A stretch of 64,000 nucleotides of DNA from a filamentous cyanobacterium CCT1 (GTDB taxonomy: Bacteria > Cyanobacteriota > Cyanobacteriia > Phormidesmidales > Phormidesmidaceae). The notes under the pieces are model-generated. The model searched no databases and had not been told where the DNA came from. It saw nothing but the letters and a program-made list of their open reading frames with translations. The stretch lies in assembly GCA_003017855.1 (NCBI GenBank), contig PYER01000003.1, positions 1-64,000 of the forward strand. The letters are read 5' to 3'. Shown here in pieces: positions 11,720 to 20,505 of this stretch. The position numbers were made by a program, and so were the translations under genes. Every line of letters starts with the position of its first letter. The stretch's first letter is position 1.

Positions 11720-12508
11720 ATGACGCTATCTGCGTGTTCAAGCTGCAAAAATGCTGTCGACAGCATTTGCCTGTTGGGGCAGAGCTACATCGACGTCTAT
11801 CTAACCGTCCAAAATATTACCAATGAACAAGATCGAGAAAAAGTTACCCATCAGCTGGCCAATTGCTCATTTTGGGAAGAGTCTGAACTGTTTAAGCAAA
11901 TCTGCCGCGAGGTTACACTCAGCCAGCACGCTTGGAGCCGAATTGCTTACATCAAGCTCCAGTCATCTGACCAAGAAATGTTTGCTGGGTTAATCGACGT
12001 AGCACGCGATGTGGTGCATAACCCCATCAGTAACACCGGACAGCCTGGTCTGGCGGAGCCTCAACCCGCGCTCGATCTAGAGCCTCTGCCCTCAGCGGCT
12101 CCTGAAATCGAATCCAGTTCTGTAGCCCCCGCAGAGCCCGTTGCAGATCAAACGGAAGCGGACACAACGACGCTGCCCGGCAACAGCCCAACGGAAAGTG
12201 AGCCTGAAGCGACTGCCCTTGAGAACCCGATCGATCAAGATCTAAGCCAGACTGTCGCCAGCCAGGATGACCAAGTTCCAAGCCAGACTATTGCTAGCCA
12301 GGATGACCAAGATCCTGTAGAACAGGCTATGCAAGAACTCTTGAGCAATGCGATCACGTCATCGACCCAGGTGTCGTTGGCAGAGGCTCAGGCTCTGCAA
12401 TGGGGCCGGGGTTCAGGTCGAGTGACTAACGCTGCTAATGTCTCTGCCAACACCAATCTAGAACTCGAACGCAACTCCCAGTTTGAGTCTCTTCCTAGTA
12501 TTGCCTAG
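11720..12508 (+). CDS. hypothetical protein with N-terminal Cys cluster and acidic repeat tail
   Basis: ATG with AGGA-type RBS; CSSCKNAVDSIC; tandem SQTVASQDDQVP/SQTIASQDDQDP. Confidence 0.6.
   Translation: MTLSACSSCKNAVDSICLLGQSYIDVYLTVQNITNEQDREKVTHQLANCSFWEESELFKQICREVTLSQHAWSRIAYIKLQSSDQEMFAGLIDVARDVVHNPISNTGQPGLAEPQPALDLEPLPSAAPEIESSSVAPAEPVADQTEADTTTLPGNSPTESEPEATALENPIDQDLSQTVASQDDQVPSQTIASQDDQDPVEQAMQELLSNAITSSTQVSLAEAQALQWGRGSGRVTNAANVSANTNLELERNSQFESLPSIA
12245..12316 (+). repeat. two tandem 36-nt units inside CDS
   Basis: agccagactgtcgccagccaggatgaccaagttcca / agccagactattgctagccaggatgaccaagatcct. Confidence 0.85.
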
Positions 12509-12860: not shown

Positions 12861-12905
12861 CAACCCCTAGGCATAAGGGGTCTTACCCCTTATGCCTAGG
12901 GGTTG
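12861..12905. repeat. perfect 21-bp inverted repeat, 3-nt loop
   Basis: caacccctaggcataaggggt-ctt-accccttatgcctaggggttg. Confidence 0.95.
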
Positions 12906-14927: not shown

Positions 14928-14979
14928 GGTGGATCAGGAGTACAAGTGAGCTCACCACTATAAAAGCACAAAAACACGT

Positions 14980-14998
14980 ATCTACTTCAGCCGTAGAT
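14980..14998. promoter_or_regulatory. putative operator dyad 1 (ATCTAC-N7-GTAGAT)
   Basis: atctac ttcagcc gtagat, between divergent regulator and cluster. Confidence 0.65.
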
Positions 14999-15014
14999 TT
15001 TTAACCCTAATGGC

Positions 15015-15043
15015 TTGACATTGATCTACGCTTCAAGTAGATT
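15015..15043 (+). promoter_or_regulatory. putative sigma70-type promoter for the 15114-20505 cluster
   Basis: TTGACA (15015-15020), 17-nt spacer, TAGATT (15038-15043). Confidence 0.6.
15024..15042. promoter_or_regulatory. putative operator dyad 2 (ATCTAC-N7-GTAGAT), overlapping the promoter
   Basis: atctac gcttcaa gtagat, same half-sites and spacer length as dyad 1; centres 44 bp apart. Confidence 0.65.
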
Positions 15044-15113: not shown

Positions 15114-15674
15114 ATGAGAAACAAAAACGCCGCCTTGGATGACCACTCGTGCTGCAGCAGCCCGTCTAAGAGCGCTGAGTCCTTACCCAATTCCGGCAGC
15201 CTAGCGCCAGGTATGCGGTTTTTCAGGAATGGGCACTGGTGGGAAGTAGATGGCTACATCAAAGGACGCGCCAGTAGCTACTACAAATGCAAGCCAGCAT
15301 GCTTTGTAGAAAGCCGATTTTATACAGAATCTGAAATTAAGCAAGCACTAGAAAAGGAAACCCAAATCATGAACCAAAAACTCCAAGAGTACGGCAGCAG
15401 AGGAACTGGTCGCCTACTCGCTGAACCCAGCGACAACACAACTCTTGTTGCTGGCAATTTTTCTGAACAGCGAACCACCAGCATCGCAAAAGTCAAGCCC
15501 TACTTAGAAAAAAAAGAGCCACTCAAGGTATTACTGGTCGGTTCGCGACAGGCCGTAAAAAAAACCATTCAAGCTCTACATCTTTTAGGCTTTGCCAATT
15601 TAAATGACTGGAGCGCTTTCCAAAACCGTTCTAACGGCGAAGAAGTTCTGAGCATTCTGGTACAAAAAGTCTAA
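15114..15674 (+). CDS. hypothetical cyanobacterial protein; C-terminal domain shared with 8400-8666 product
   Basis: LKVLLVGSRQAVKKTIQALHLLGFANLNDWSAFQN...EVLSILVQKV. Confidence 0.65.
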   Translation: MRNKNAALDDHSCCSSPSKSAESLPNSGSLAPGMRFFRNGHWWEVDGYIKGRASSYYKCKPACFVESRFYTESEIKQALEKETQIMNQKLQEYGSRGTGRLLAEPSDNTTLVAGNFSEQRTTSIAKVKPYLEKKEPLKVLLVGSRQAVKKTIQALHLLGFANLNDWSAFQNRSNGEEVLSILVQKV

Positions 15675-15703
15675 CCTGTGTAGCAATCATAGAGAGGGGA
15701 ATA

Positions 15704-16198
15704 ATGAAAAAAAATCCTGCTGAATCAACTTTTATTTTGCTCTCCAACTACAGCTTTGAGTTAACTGAAACTAATGTTAACGACATGGTATTTGGCTGGC
15801 TTAGCTTATATCCAGGCAAATGGGTGGTCGCAGCTATTGTTGAAGCCATATACCAGGGACGCTACAAAGTTGAATCAGTCAGCCGAATCCTTAGCTCATG
15901 GAACACAAAAGGTTACCCGGCACACCATTTTGACTATGACTTTGCTGACGTGGTTTGCAAGCAACTTGTCAACTTGGGCACCTACAGAGTAAGCAAATCA
16001 AATCGAGAGGCTATGAAAACTATGCAACACCAAGAACATACCGTTTCAGAGCAACTAAAAACTGAAGTAAACCATCAGCGAGAAGGGCAAAATTTAGCAG
16101 AAATGATTCCCAAAAAGCACTGCAAAACGGGCTTTAAGAATACGCCCAATCAAAAAATAGGCGAGTGTGAAAGGTTAGTTGTTCACATCACTGCTTAA
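15704..16198 (+). CDS. hypothetical protein
   Basis: Ordered ORF with IVEAIYQGRYKVESVSRILSSWNTKG segment of a type I recognise from cyanobacterial hypothetical proteins; 29 nt after previous gene. Confidence 0.6.
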   Translation: MKKNPAESTFILLSNYSFELTETNVNDMVFGWLSLYPGKWVVAAIVEAIYQGRYKVESVSRILSSWNTKGYPAHHFDYDFADVVCKQLVNLGTYRVSKSNREAMKTMQHQEHTVSEQLKTEVNHQREGQNLAEMIPKKHCKTGFKNTPNQKIGECERLVVHITA

Positions 16199-16230
16199 AA
16201 ATTAGATCGATTCGCAGGAGATCAGCAGAC

Positions 16231-16593
16231 ATGCATTCATATTATCCCAAGAGCTATGACTACTACACTGACGAACGTAACGCCTTTCTATCAACGCCCT
16301 CACAAGAGAACTATGGAAGCACGCTTACTGCTGAAATAATAATCCTGGAGCCAGCTTCGTTTACAGAAATCTCAGAAGCCATTCATGCCTTGAGAAGTAA
16401 CCAAATGGTTGTCTTGAACCTGATGAAAATTGATTTTGAAGAAGCCCAGCGCTGTGTAGACTTTTTAGCAGGAAGTATTCTCATGATTAATGGAACTGTT
16501 GAGAAGATAGATGAAAAAATATTCATTTTTGCTCCCTATAGTGCAGAGATTATCGCTGAGCACCAGCAGAATGAAGATCGAGGTAGCCAATGA
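16231..16593 (+). CDS. SepF-like (YlmF/Cdv2) short paralogue
   Basis: EIIILEPASFTEISEAIHALRSNQMVVLNLMKIDFEEAQRCVDFLAGSILMINGTVEKIDEKIFIFAP matches the SepF core pattern (EP.SF.E...I..LR....VVLNL...D...AQR.VDF.AG....I.G....I...IF.F.P). Confidence 0.85.
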   Translation: MHSYYPKSYDYYTDERNAFLSTPSQENYGSTLTAEIIILEPASFTEISEAIHALRSNQMVVLNLMKIDFEEAQRCVDFLAGSILMINGTVEKIDEKIFIFAPYSAEIIAEHQQNEDRGSQ

Positions 16594-16714
16594 ATATCAG
16601 ATTGACAATTTCGGCTAGGCATTGCATAGATGATTCAAAAATTCTTTGACGCATAGTTGTTCTAATCCAAAATTTCTTTAAATAATCCCAAGGCAACGCA
16701 ATTAGGAAAGCAAA

Positions 16715-18859
16715 ATGATTTCTCCAGACTTAGTTTCAGGCATCACGTTTTGGATCTTCAAGGCTCTTTGGGAAAGCCGTGACGAAACTTACAAACTGCT
16801 AAGCCAGAGACTTAATCAGAGCATTTTCTATGCTTCAAAAGAATATCAGGCCAATTACATTGCTAGACACGGATTTATAAAACAAGAAGAGTTTAGGCCT
16901 TCTATAGCATTATCTAAACTTTATATATCGCCATCTCTCGTTGACCGAAAAATACCCGTTCATCAATTAAGCAAAACATTACCCTATTACAAAGAAATTG
17001 ACTACCTTAATAAGCTTAACCTGACCCAAGATAGCTCTAGTTTATTTGATCAACATAAACATTTAATTATTAAGGGAGATTCGGGGATTGGAAAAACAAC
17101 TTTTCTAAAGAAGCTAGGGTTAGAAGCCTTTGAGGAAAGAGAAGACTATCCTTCCGGTGGGTATATTCCCGTTTTTATTCAGATATCTCAAAGTTTTAAC
17201 ATTAAAATTGATCTACAAAAAATGGTGGAAGAAGAGTTTAAAGCTTGCGGTTTTCCGGAGTACGAAGGGTTTACAGAGTCGGCTTTAAAGAAAGGAAAAT
17301 TGCTCGTTCTAATTGATGAAAGTGACACGATTACACACCACCTCCAAGACAATTTAATTCTGAAGTTAAAAAGCTTTTCTGACCTCTATAAAGGCAACAG
17401 AATAGTATTAGCTAGTCGAAAATCTCTAAACACAAAAGCATTGACTCACTTTCACAGTGTTAGCATTTTGGGTTTTGGTAGCGATCAAATCCAAACGTAC
17501 ATCTACAAAGTCTACCAGGTACCGAATGAAGGAGTCATTTCTGATTCAACTTGCCAGGATATTTGGCAAAAAATAGGTGAAAACGACAAGGCGACAAGGT
17601 TGATAGTCCATAATCCTTTTTGCTTAAGTATTGTCCTGTCACTATACCAAAAATCAACCCAAAAAATTTCTGGTAAAACTATACTCTACGAGAAAATCCT
17701 CTCAAATCTACTAGGAACTACTATTTCTCCAGGCACTTTAGATCTCACCTATAAAGGAATGGAAAGTTCCGTTGAAGCTCGTCTAGGCATTTTATCTGAG
17801 ATGGCTTATGTTTGCCTTAAAAGTGGCAGACAGTACTTCCACAAAATGGAAATATACCGACTTTATGCAGCAATCGTGCAGAAACGAGCTATTCAATATG
17901 ATCTAACCAACTTTGCATCTATACGAGAGGAAACCTTTAACGATTTCCTCGTCAGCGTAAATGACAATTTATGTCAGTTCAGCAACCCGCTAATTCAAAA
18001 GATACTTGTTTCACATCACCTTATGGGTAGCCTAAAAATCTTAGACGAATCAATTGATCAGTTTTTAGATACACCATCATGGGAGGATGTGTTCGTTTTC
18101 TTGGCCGGTATGCAAGGGGCTGACTACTTGCTATCAATTATACAAAATAGAATTTTTTCTAATTTAAGCACCCCTAACCTGAGCAGCTTTATGAATTGGA
18201 TCGAGTCTGTCTCTGAAGATGTATGTATATCATCAAATCAAGCCGTTAATCGATGCTATGTAGCATTTATGGTTTTTGAAATAATGCTGCTATTCGGCGA
18301 TCGCAATTCCGACAAATCAGTCATAGCTAATATTCTTAAAAAGATTAAGGAAGTTATTTCCCTTTTGGATCCCGAATGCCATCTTATTAATTCAATCAAT
18401 TCCAAGAATATCGACGGCATGAGATTGAGTTTAAATCATTTTATCGATCCTAAGATAACTAGGGGTTTGTCACTAGAACGCCTTCTTGATTTGGCAGCAA
18501 TTCTTTCTAAAAAAGCGCAGTCTTATAAATTAATTAATTCTAGTAATGCACAAAGATTGCTGTCCACAATATCGCGCATAAGAAAACAGCTGGAGGGTAA
18601 ATCTATATCAACTTATCACCGAAAAGTCTGTGAAAAAAACCTGTACATGTTATGGATGAGCTCTTTCGATATGGTCGATAACAATCTTAAGTTCACGCCC
18701 AGTGACTTACAGTCATTCTATTTATATAGCCGGGGAGCATGTCTCATTGTTAATTGCCTTCGAGAAGCTTTTTATGTATCTGGAAGACTTCAGGACGATG
18801 TAATTCAAGCTTTGTTTACAAATCCCGTTTCCGCTTTTCCCCCCACAACCAACCTATAG
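16715..18859 (+). CDS. NACHT/STAND-type NTPase
   Basis: Walker A GDSGIGKTTFLKKL, IPVFIQISQS, Walker B LLVLIDESD, IVLASR sensor-like strand, NPFCLSIVLSLY; helical C-terminus without obvious repeats. Confidence 0.85.
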   Translation: MISPDLVSGITFWIFKALWESRDETYKLLSQRLNQSIFYASKEYQANYIARHGFIKQEEFRPSIALSKLYISPSLVDRKIPVHQLSKTLPYYKEIDYLNKLNLTQDSSSLFDQHKHLIIKGDSGIGKTTFLKKLGLEAFEEREDYPSGGYIPVFIQISQSFNIKIDLQKMVEEEFKACGFPEYEGFTESALKKGKLLVLIDESDTITHHLQDNLILKLKSFSDLYKGNRIVLASRKSLNTKALTHFHSVSILGFGSDQIQTYIYKVYQVPNEGVISDSTCQDIWQKIGENDKATRLIVHNPFCLSIVLSLYQKSTQKISGKTILYEKILSNLLGTTISPGTLDLTYKGMESSVEARLGILSEMAYVCLKSGRQYFHKMEIYRLYAAIVQKRAIQYDLTNFASIREETFNDFLVSVNDNLCQFSNPLIQKILVSHHLMGSLKILDESIDQFLDTPSWEDVFVFLAGMQGADYLLSIIQNRIFSNLSTPNLSSFMNWIESVSEDVCISSNQAVNRCYVAFMVFEIMLLFGDRNSDKSVIANILKKIKEVISLLDPECHLINSINSKNIDGMRLSLNHFIDPKITRGLSLERLLDLAAILSKKAQSYKLINSSNAQRLLSTISRIRKQLEGKSISTYHRKVCEKNLYMLWMSSFDMVDNNLKFTPSDLQSFYLYSRGACLIVNCLREAFYVSGRLQDDVIQALFTNPVSAFPPTTNL

Positions 18860-18870
18860 GAGGATCCGCC

Positions 18871-19605
18871 ATGAATATTGAAAATTTAGTTCAACTCTCG
18901 TTCGAACAGTTGGATGAAATTCATCGACGAATTAGTACTGCGATTCATGAAAAAAGAATAATGAGGGTTGGTAATTCTGCAAGTGACATTTTAGATTTAA
19001 TGGCGACGAACTACTCTGACGTAGATCTGTGGGATGTACTCAATGAACTTGCATTTCGTAGTCAACTAAAGGTTGATCTAAAGAGCAGTTCAATTAGCTA
19101 TAAGCCAGTGCTGAATGAAACACCCAACTTAAAAGAGGACCAGAGGCCTGAATTATCGTTTCAAAACATTCAAATTCTATCAGAGCGATTGAAAACGATC
19201 CGAAATTCTGTTTTGCAGCATGATGACTCTCGCTTGTTATGGTTAACCAGCGGAGCTACCCAAAAAACATCAAAAATGTTTGGCAAAGATTTGGCAGAAG
19301 TTTTACAGGAAGCAACCAAAAGATTGGATAGACTACACGACGTAAGTGACGAAGACGAGCAGATAAAGGATTTAAGTTCTGAGGTCATCAAAATAGATGA
19401 GTGGGCAGAATTTAAACTTGGCATCTCTTTATTGTATGGAACTTTAACGGTCATTAATCCATTTTCTTCTAGAGACAATCAAACCAAAGACAATCCTCGT
19501 ACATCGCAACGGCTTCCCACGTCTGAAAACAGCAGAAATAAAGCTAGTTTAGAGCTTAGCTTTTACTCAAATCAGCGCAAAGGCGCTAGCGGCTACGTTC
19601 AGTAA
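18871..19605 (+). CDS. hypothetical protein, translationally coupled to the NACHT gene
   Basis: ATG 11 nt after NACHT stop with taggagga RBS; helical acidic protein. Confidence 0.65.
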   Translation: MNIENLVQLSFEQLDEIHRRISTAIHEKRIMRVGNSASDILDLMATNYSDVDLWDVLNELAFRSQLKVDLKSSSISYKPVLNETPNLKEDQRPELSFQNIQILSERLKTIRNSVLQHDDSRLLWLTSGATQKTSKMFGKDLAEVLQEATKRLDRLHDVSDEDEQIKDLSSEVIKIDEWAEFKLGISLLYGTLTVINPFSSRDNQTKDNPRTSQRLPTSENSRNKASLELSFYSNQRKGASGYVQ

Positions 19606-19650
19606 TAGTTCTCAGCCTGTATCAACACATCTAAAATGGGAGAAAACCGA

Positions 19651-20505
19651 ATGGGCGCTGACGGATCTGACCACCTATCATACTTAAAGCGGTACCCAAT
19701 GCTAAAGCATGAAGAGGAAGTTGAGCTTGGGCAAAAAGTTCGAAGGATGATGGATCACTGTGAACCCGTTCCTTCCAAAATTATCAAAGAGGGAATTGCT
19801 GCCAAGCGCCGCATGATAGAAGGAAACTTGAGACTCGTAGTTTATATCGCCAAAAAGTACCTTGGGCGAGGCTTAGATTTAGATGATTTGGTGTCAGAGG
19901 GAATTATTGGACTGAATCGGGCGGTAGAAAAATTTGAGCCGACTAGAGGTTACCGCTTTAGTACCTATAGCTGCTGGTGGATTCGTCAATCAATTACTCG
20001 AGCATTAGCAAATCAGGGGCAAAGTATTCGCATTCCTATGCACATAGTTGAGAAGTTGAATAGGGTGAAAAAATGGCAACACTTATTTCAACTCAAAAAT
20101 AACCAGTTTCCTAACCAGGGCGAGTTAGAGGTTTTTTTGAAGAATGAGCTGGGCTTGAACTTTGCTGATTTTCAAAGATTGGTTTTGATTACACAACGCA
20201 ACCCTAGCTTAGATGCTTCTTTAAACAATGATGATTTAGACTTTAATTTGGGTAATTCTCTGCGCGATGAATGCTATGAACGAGCAGTTGAGTCTTTAGA
20301 AAGTAGCTATGAGTTGGATGATATTTTGGGGCAGGCTAATCTGACTGAGCGAGAGCTTAAGGTACTAAAGTTACACTTCAACTATAATCAGAGCCTAAAC
20401 GATATTGGGCAACAACATTTAGGTGGAGTTACCCGGGAACGGGTAAGGCAGATTAAGGTGGCCGCGCTTCAGAAGTGCCGCCACGCGATCGCCCTAAGGG
20501 ACTGA
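19651..20505 (+). CDS. RNA polymerase sigma-70 factor (RpoD/group 2-like)
   Basis: Region 1.2 ([21 protein letters not shown]), region 2 ([62 protein letters not shown]), region 4 ([18 protein letters not shown]); start 19651 preferred over 19636 by RBS GGAGAA. Confidence 0.93.

Follow-up and report, generated by a model that had tools for sequence, protein, structure and literature searches.

The HetR/RGSGR-peptide system is used by cyanobacteria for the patterning of specialized cells. The pentapeptide RG(S/T)GR is the HetR-inhibitory element of PatS, HetN, and PatX (PMC7761841), and PatX undergoes export and processing by PatP (PMC12756182). Dimers of HetR bind palindromes, with a consensus gggN5ccc; E253 and the D270/D278 pair are reported to be indispensable for the effect of the PatS peptide, and E254 and D256 to contribute to it (PMC4649674). 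In filamentous cyanobacteria that do not form heterocysts, the function of hetR and patX was called a mystery in 2024, and in Leptolyngbya BL0902 the effects of PatX appeared independent of HetR (PMC11298460).

Here, we analyzed a window of 64,000 nucleotides from the filamentous cyanobacterium CCT1 (assembly GCA_003017855.1, contig PYER01000003.1, positions 1 to 64,000), in which two inverted repeats, or dyads, lie between the gene of an XRE regulator and a divergent cluster that includes a HetR paralog. This locus shares with the HetR-PatX and HetR-PatS modules residues R223, E253, D270, and D278 of HetR, proteins with RG(S/T)GR, and a HetR-type box. However, its RG(S/T)GR proteins are larger (186 and 262 aa) and have no obvious signal peptide, and their genes lie several genes away from that of HetR, whereas patX is immediately upstream of hetR. 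SepF, a NACHT ATPase, and the proposed XRE gate are additions. With autoregulated XRE repressors of the C-protein, SinR, and P22 c2 type, the locus shares the HTH fold, inverted-repeat operators in a divergent promoter, and an operator over the −10 box, but its regulator has a nameless C-terminal domain of its own and would control a HetR-containing cluster. What it has in common with the CI/Cro lysogeny switch is the presence of two or more operators between divergent promoters.

Two Dyads in the Promoter Region between an XRE Regulator and a Divergent Cluster

The two dyads are exactly where they had been predicted. Dyad 1 (ATCTAC-TTCAGCC-GTAGAT, 14980–14998), a predicted operator on the regulator's side, and dyad 2 (ATCTAC-GCTTCAA-GTAGAT, 15024–15042), a predicted operator over the cluster promoter, are exact matches to ATCTAC-N7-GTAGAT, and their centers (14989 and 15033) are 44 bp apart. 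Their half-sites are identical, as is the length of their spacers (7 nt), but the spacer sequences, originally described as identical too, differ. They are the only perfect copies in the window. When up to three mismatches are allowed, the window contains 15 matches versus 12.2 ± 3.4 by chance, which is no excess, and the evidence for the dyads therefore rests on their conservation. As shown by a motif scan of the whole 6.85-Mb assembly, the dyad is uncommon at unrelated loci, with only three perfect sites: the two dyads themselves and a copy on contig C155 (L001, G000:C155:1-2340), which also carries a regulator homolog (57% identical). We considered C155 as a third, paralogous locus of this genome and rejected it as probable cross-contamination of the assembly, since its entire 2340 bp are 99.96% identical to a contig from a genome of a different genus (G001:C45); it may instead reflect recent transfer. 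A global regulon of the dyad was rejected as well: most near-matches in 66 genomes are isolated and scattered, and a reversed-pattern control gave about as many. In the same genomes, zero-mismatch extended sites are all at XRE loci, except for those on G035:C146 and G036:C245, around which no related genes were seen. The dyad sequence was not found in the literature searched.

A consensus scan identified the predicted cluster promoter on the forward strand (15015–15043), with a −35 hexamer TTGACA (15015–15020) and a −10 hexamer TAGATT (15038–15043) separated by 17 bp. The original prediction had dyad 2 between these hexamers; it does lie within the promoter, but not strictly between them, since all but one of the six −10 bases fall within its right half-site. 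That its occupancy would block the promoter is supported both by this geometry and by conservation in 13 loci (see below). On the reverse strand, a putative weak promoter of the regulator (TAGATA-16-TATAGT, 14957–14984; 9/12 by consensus scan alone) overlaps dyad 1 through its putative −35, which places dyad 1 where it could affect transcription of the regulator, in keeping with the autoregulation proposed for it. Judging from these positions, a protein bound to dyad 2 should keep RNA polymerase out, and one bound to dyad 1 should have an effect on the regulator.

The regulator gene (P0001, 14292–14927, reverse strand) encodes a 211-aa XRE protein, with an HTH_26 domain (PF13443, 67.7 bits versus a cutoff of 22) and a C-terminal domain that is conserved in homologs and has no Pfam name. 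In an AlphaFold model, the HTH is confident and the C-terminal domain moderately confident (mean pLDDT 68). Foldseek matched the HTH to C-proteins, SinR, and P22 c2. The best overall Foldseek match was the carboxysome assembly protein CcmS (E 5e-4, TM 0.35 on the query), the fold of which the C-terminal half weakly resembles in the model; we take this resemblance as a lead only. A search of solved structures by sequence, using the regulator alignment, gave no match, and a search of viral contigs returned distant HTH matches alone.

The arrangement had been predicted to be a CI/Cro-like switch. However, Pfam shows no CI-type self-cleaving peptidase in the regulator, and there is no Cro-like opponent across the operators, where the product of the first gene, 186 aa long, has no detectable HTH and no Pfam, NCBIfam, or PHROG match. 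Since there is neither a second repressor nor a CI-type cleavage domain, we consider the regulator an autoregulated divergent repressor rather than part of a CI/Cro switch. The absence of the peptidase alone would be a weak argument, because some CI-like repressors do without one.

The Dyads Are Conserved with the Regulator

Full-length homologs of the regulator were found in 11 genomes of its own order (its own included), where the distribution is patchy, and in G092 and G229, which belong to another and a third family, respectively. We compared the 13 loci with a full regulator by anchoring dyad 2 and measuring the match upstream. Dyad 2 matches at 10 to 12 of the 12 positions at every locus and is preceded, at a fixed distance, by a −35 in which TTGAC is invariant (13/13). 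A second dyad, matching at 9 to 12 of the 12 positions, is found at each locus at a distance of 44 bp (11 loci) or 45 bp (2 loci) from dyad 2, and the match averages 9.0/12 at 44 bp versus 3.27 ± 1.17 over offsets 20 to 80. The dyad is thus present at the orthologous loci, and it is mainly this conservation in 13 loci that excludes chance. One locus (L030) has a third dyad (10/12) in the interval from dyad 1 to dyad 2, 23 bp from the latter and with some of its bases in common with the −35; in the other loci, the signal at 23 bp reflects in part the −35 sequence itself. Another locus (L025, 9176–9624) displays a 226-bp tandem duplication of the 5' part of the regulator gene and its upstream DNA, with a truncated extra HTH copy before the intact gene; the dyads stand before the first copy of the duplicated start.

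Across the 13 loci, dyad 1 is weaker and more variable than dyad 2, and the two dyads may therefore fill at different levels. This difference would also suit a regulator that is an activator or has a dual role, with dyad 1 promoting transcription of the regulator or the cluster and dyad 2 repressing at high level only, as would the location of dyad 1, the center of which is ~26 bp upstream of the cluster −35 and which overlaps the putative −35 of the regulator. We find such a role distinctly unlikely, because the best-kept site is dyad 2, which extends into the −10, where a bound protein would stand in the way of RNA polymerase, and because the TTGAC −35 is already near consensus, which makes an activator needless.

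A scan of genome contigs for regulator homologs gave 80 loci, many of which share the HTH alone. A dyad, defined as a site with at most two mismatches within 300 bp upstream of the homolog, is present for 24 of the 25 homologs with a recognition helix ending in SVYRLRK or close to it (a group that takes in L166, with a helix ending in RLRR), but for none of the 68 with a different helix, which include cyanobacterial homologs (e.g., L067, L079, L099, L108, L111, L113, L118, and L126); the sequences are related, and 2 of the 25 may be one genome in two collections, so Fisher values for this comparison overstate independence. In Nostocales, a relative of the regulator is only 86 aa long and stands opposite an unrelated gene encoding ~110 aa; the dyads are kept there, again close to a −10 and to a −35 resembling TTGAC. 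That it is kept opposite a different gene argues for a dyad tied to the regulator rather than to HetR or the cluster. It could still be supposed that another cluster protein binds the dyads, such as the HetR paralog, HetR being a dimer that binds palindromes (PMC4649674), but this is most improbable, since the dyad is kept beside the HTH in the Nostocales pair, which has no HetR, is lost when the recognition helix changes, and is unlike the HetR consensus gggN5ccc. We conclude, from sequence comparison, that the dyads are likely operators of the divergent XRE/HTH_26 protein.

At several Nostocales loci (L057, L059, L060, L062, and L063), the 86-aa HTH protein and its divergent ~110-aa partner adjoin genes of type V-K CRISPR transposons (TnsB, TnsC, and TniQ), with Cas12k at two of them. 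Known repressors of such transposons differ in type from these HTH proteins, CvkR being MerR-type and the others Arc-like (PMC9938897). The pair may be a preferred neighbor or cargo of the transposon. It may also be a mere neighbor, since it is present at L056, L058, L061, and L064, where no match to a V-K transposon gene was found.

The Cluster Combines RG(S/T)GR Proteins with Paralogs of HetR and SepF

The first gene behind dyad 2 (P0002, 15114–15674, forward strand) encodes the 186-aa protein, with RGTGR at residues 96 to 100 (15399–15413). It is followed on the same strand by genes for a conserved 164-aa protein without a named function (P0003, 15704–16198), present at all cluster loci; a SepF paralog (P0004, 16231–16593; PF04472, 76.4 bits versus a cutoff of 27); a NACHT-domain ATPase (P0005, 16715–18859; PF05729, 38.1 bits versus a cutoff of 26.7); a conserved protein of no known function (P0006, 18754–19605), with homologs in six loci; and a sigma-70 family factor (P0007, 19636–20505; PF04542/PF04545 over cutoff), which only three of the other cluster loci have. 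The P0006 ORF as mechanically called overlaps the preceding gene, and its true start is probably internal. From the spacing, we assumed that 15114–20505 is one operon. The gene of the HetR paralog (P0008, 20539–21465, reverse strand) is convergent with it. On the other side of the regulator, two forward-strand genes encode a conserved 340-aa protein with a probable membrane segment (P0009, 13205–14227), which has homologs at all cluster loci, and a second RG(S/T)GR protein of 262 aa from the ATG at 11720 (11720–12508), with RGSGR at 12407–12421. The nameless proteins of the cluster received no name from defense-system, NCBIfam, or PHROG libraries.

Most orthologous loci retain the set of 186-aa protein, 164-aa protein, SepF, NACHT ATPase, P0006, and HetR, with the sigma factor in some. 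In the distant family (G229), the core comprises the regulator, an RGSGR protein, SepF, 164-aa-like and 340-aa-like proteins, NACHT, and HetR. The HetR/SepF cluster of that genome, which has nifH, lies ~7 kb from ftsZ (L181, 826–2019). The window's genome has two HetRs and one SepF besides those of the cluster, while in one near-complete genome (G065:C133:45086-45964) the cluster HetR is the sole HetR found at the threshold used.

The cluster HetR matches PF03574 (167.4 bits) and PF18460 (67.7 bits), both with a cutoff of 27. Its score against the NCBIfam HetR equivalog (261.3 bits) is below the cutoff of 489, and we therefore classify it as a paralog, not HetR itself. It retains R223, E253, D270, and D278, with E254 replaced by T and D256 by E. 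RGTGR or RGSGR is present in the 186-aa protein at every locus, in proteins down to 29% identity, and is at the edge of a disordered linker in the model of P0002. For the second RG(S/T)GR protein, ORFs in the matching place at seven other loci carry the motif near the C terminus; the similarity of the L029 and L033 ORFs to the protein of the window is weak. Since PatX is exported and neither the 186-aa nor the 262-aa protein has an N-terminal signal obvious to the eye, we did not class them as PatX. Elsewhere in the genome (G000:C354; L182, 3999–4319), a 106-aa protein with three copies of RGSGR adjoins another of its HetRs, as expected of PatX.

Between the genes of the second RG(S/T)GR protein and the 340-aa protein, there is a HetR-type box, AGGGGTCTTACCCCT (12876–12890). 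Of 14 rows, two of which represent the same G065 locus, 6 carry GGGGN5CCCC in the 600 bp preceding the 340-aa gene, versus 0.16 expected from mononucleotide shuffles. Since the box is the center of a longer inverted repeat, it may also be a terminator or another hairpin.

NACHT/STAND ATPases frequently work in defense. The cluster could thus be a co-inherited stress or defense island around its NACHT ATPase, in which the XRE protein binds the dyads as an ordinary autoregulated repressor and the RG(S/T)GR proteins do not act on HetR. The operator evidence fits this just as well, and the patchy distribution in the order, the size and lack of apparent export that set the RG(S/T)GR proteins apart from PatX, and the two changed residues in the HetR pocket all speak in its favor. 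Nevertheless, we consider it unlikely, because RG(S/T)GR is invariant in an otherwise poorly conserved protein, recurs in a second protein of the cluster, and travels with a HetR paralog that retains the indispensable pocket residues. In addition, PADLOC found no defense system in the cluster, its only matches being a generic sigma match and a weak P-loop match.

Discussion

The explanation that we favor as a whole, with moderate confidence, is a HetR/RG(S/T)GR module gated by an XRE repressor, with the dyads as its operators. Considering its parts, repression and autoregulation by the XRE protein are likely, and the gating of a HetR/RG(S/T)GR module by this repressor is plausible. In such a module, an XRE dimer on dyad 2 would cover the −35/−10 spacer and the −10 box, thereby repressing the cluster promoter. 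On the same face of the DNA and at a distance of four helical turns, a second dimer, bound to dyad 1, would overlap the −35 of the regulator's weak promoter and tune the level of the regulator, possibly in cooperation with the dimer on dyad 2. Relief by some signal, perhaps sensed via the C-terminal domain of the regulator, would release the operon, whose first gene encodes the RG(S/T)GR protein and whose later genes encode the SepF paralog, the NACHT ATPase, and, in this genome, the sigma factor. The cluster HetR would have the gggN5ccc box within the cluster as its target and would be held back by the RG(S/T)GR proteins through their binding to its Hood domain. Taken together, the locus would represent an XRE-gated HetR/RG(S/T)GR module with an influence on cell division or on the fate of the filament.

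The genes predicted to be under this control are a conserved set, undescribed in the open-access literature that we searched, which is related to the HetR/RGSGR-peptide system. That search returned no description of the HetR/SepF/sigma/XRE combination; subscription papers, such as Elhai and Khudyakov 2018 on PatX, were outside its scope. We tentatively suggest, as a possibility well short of our favored explanation in likelihood, that the locus is a second, XRE-gated patterning circuit of filamentous cyanobacteria, apart from the canonical HetR-PatX pair. If this is true, a HetR paralog, its own RG(S/T)GR ligands, and a SepF paralog would determine the cells of a filament that divide, differentiate, or break. 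With a HetR paralog, a division protein, and RG(S/T)GR proteins all behind a single recognizable repressor and operator, the locus offers a defined genetic handle on filament behavior.
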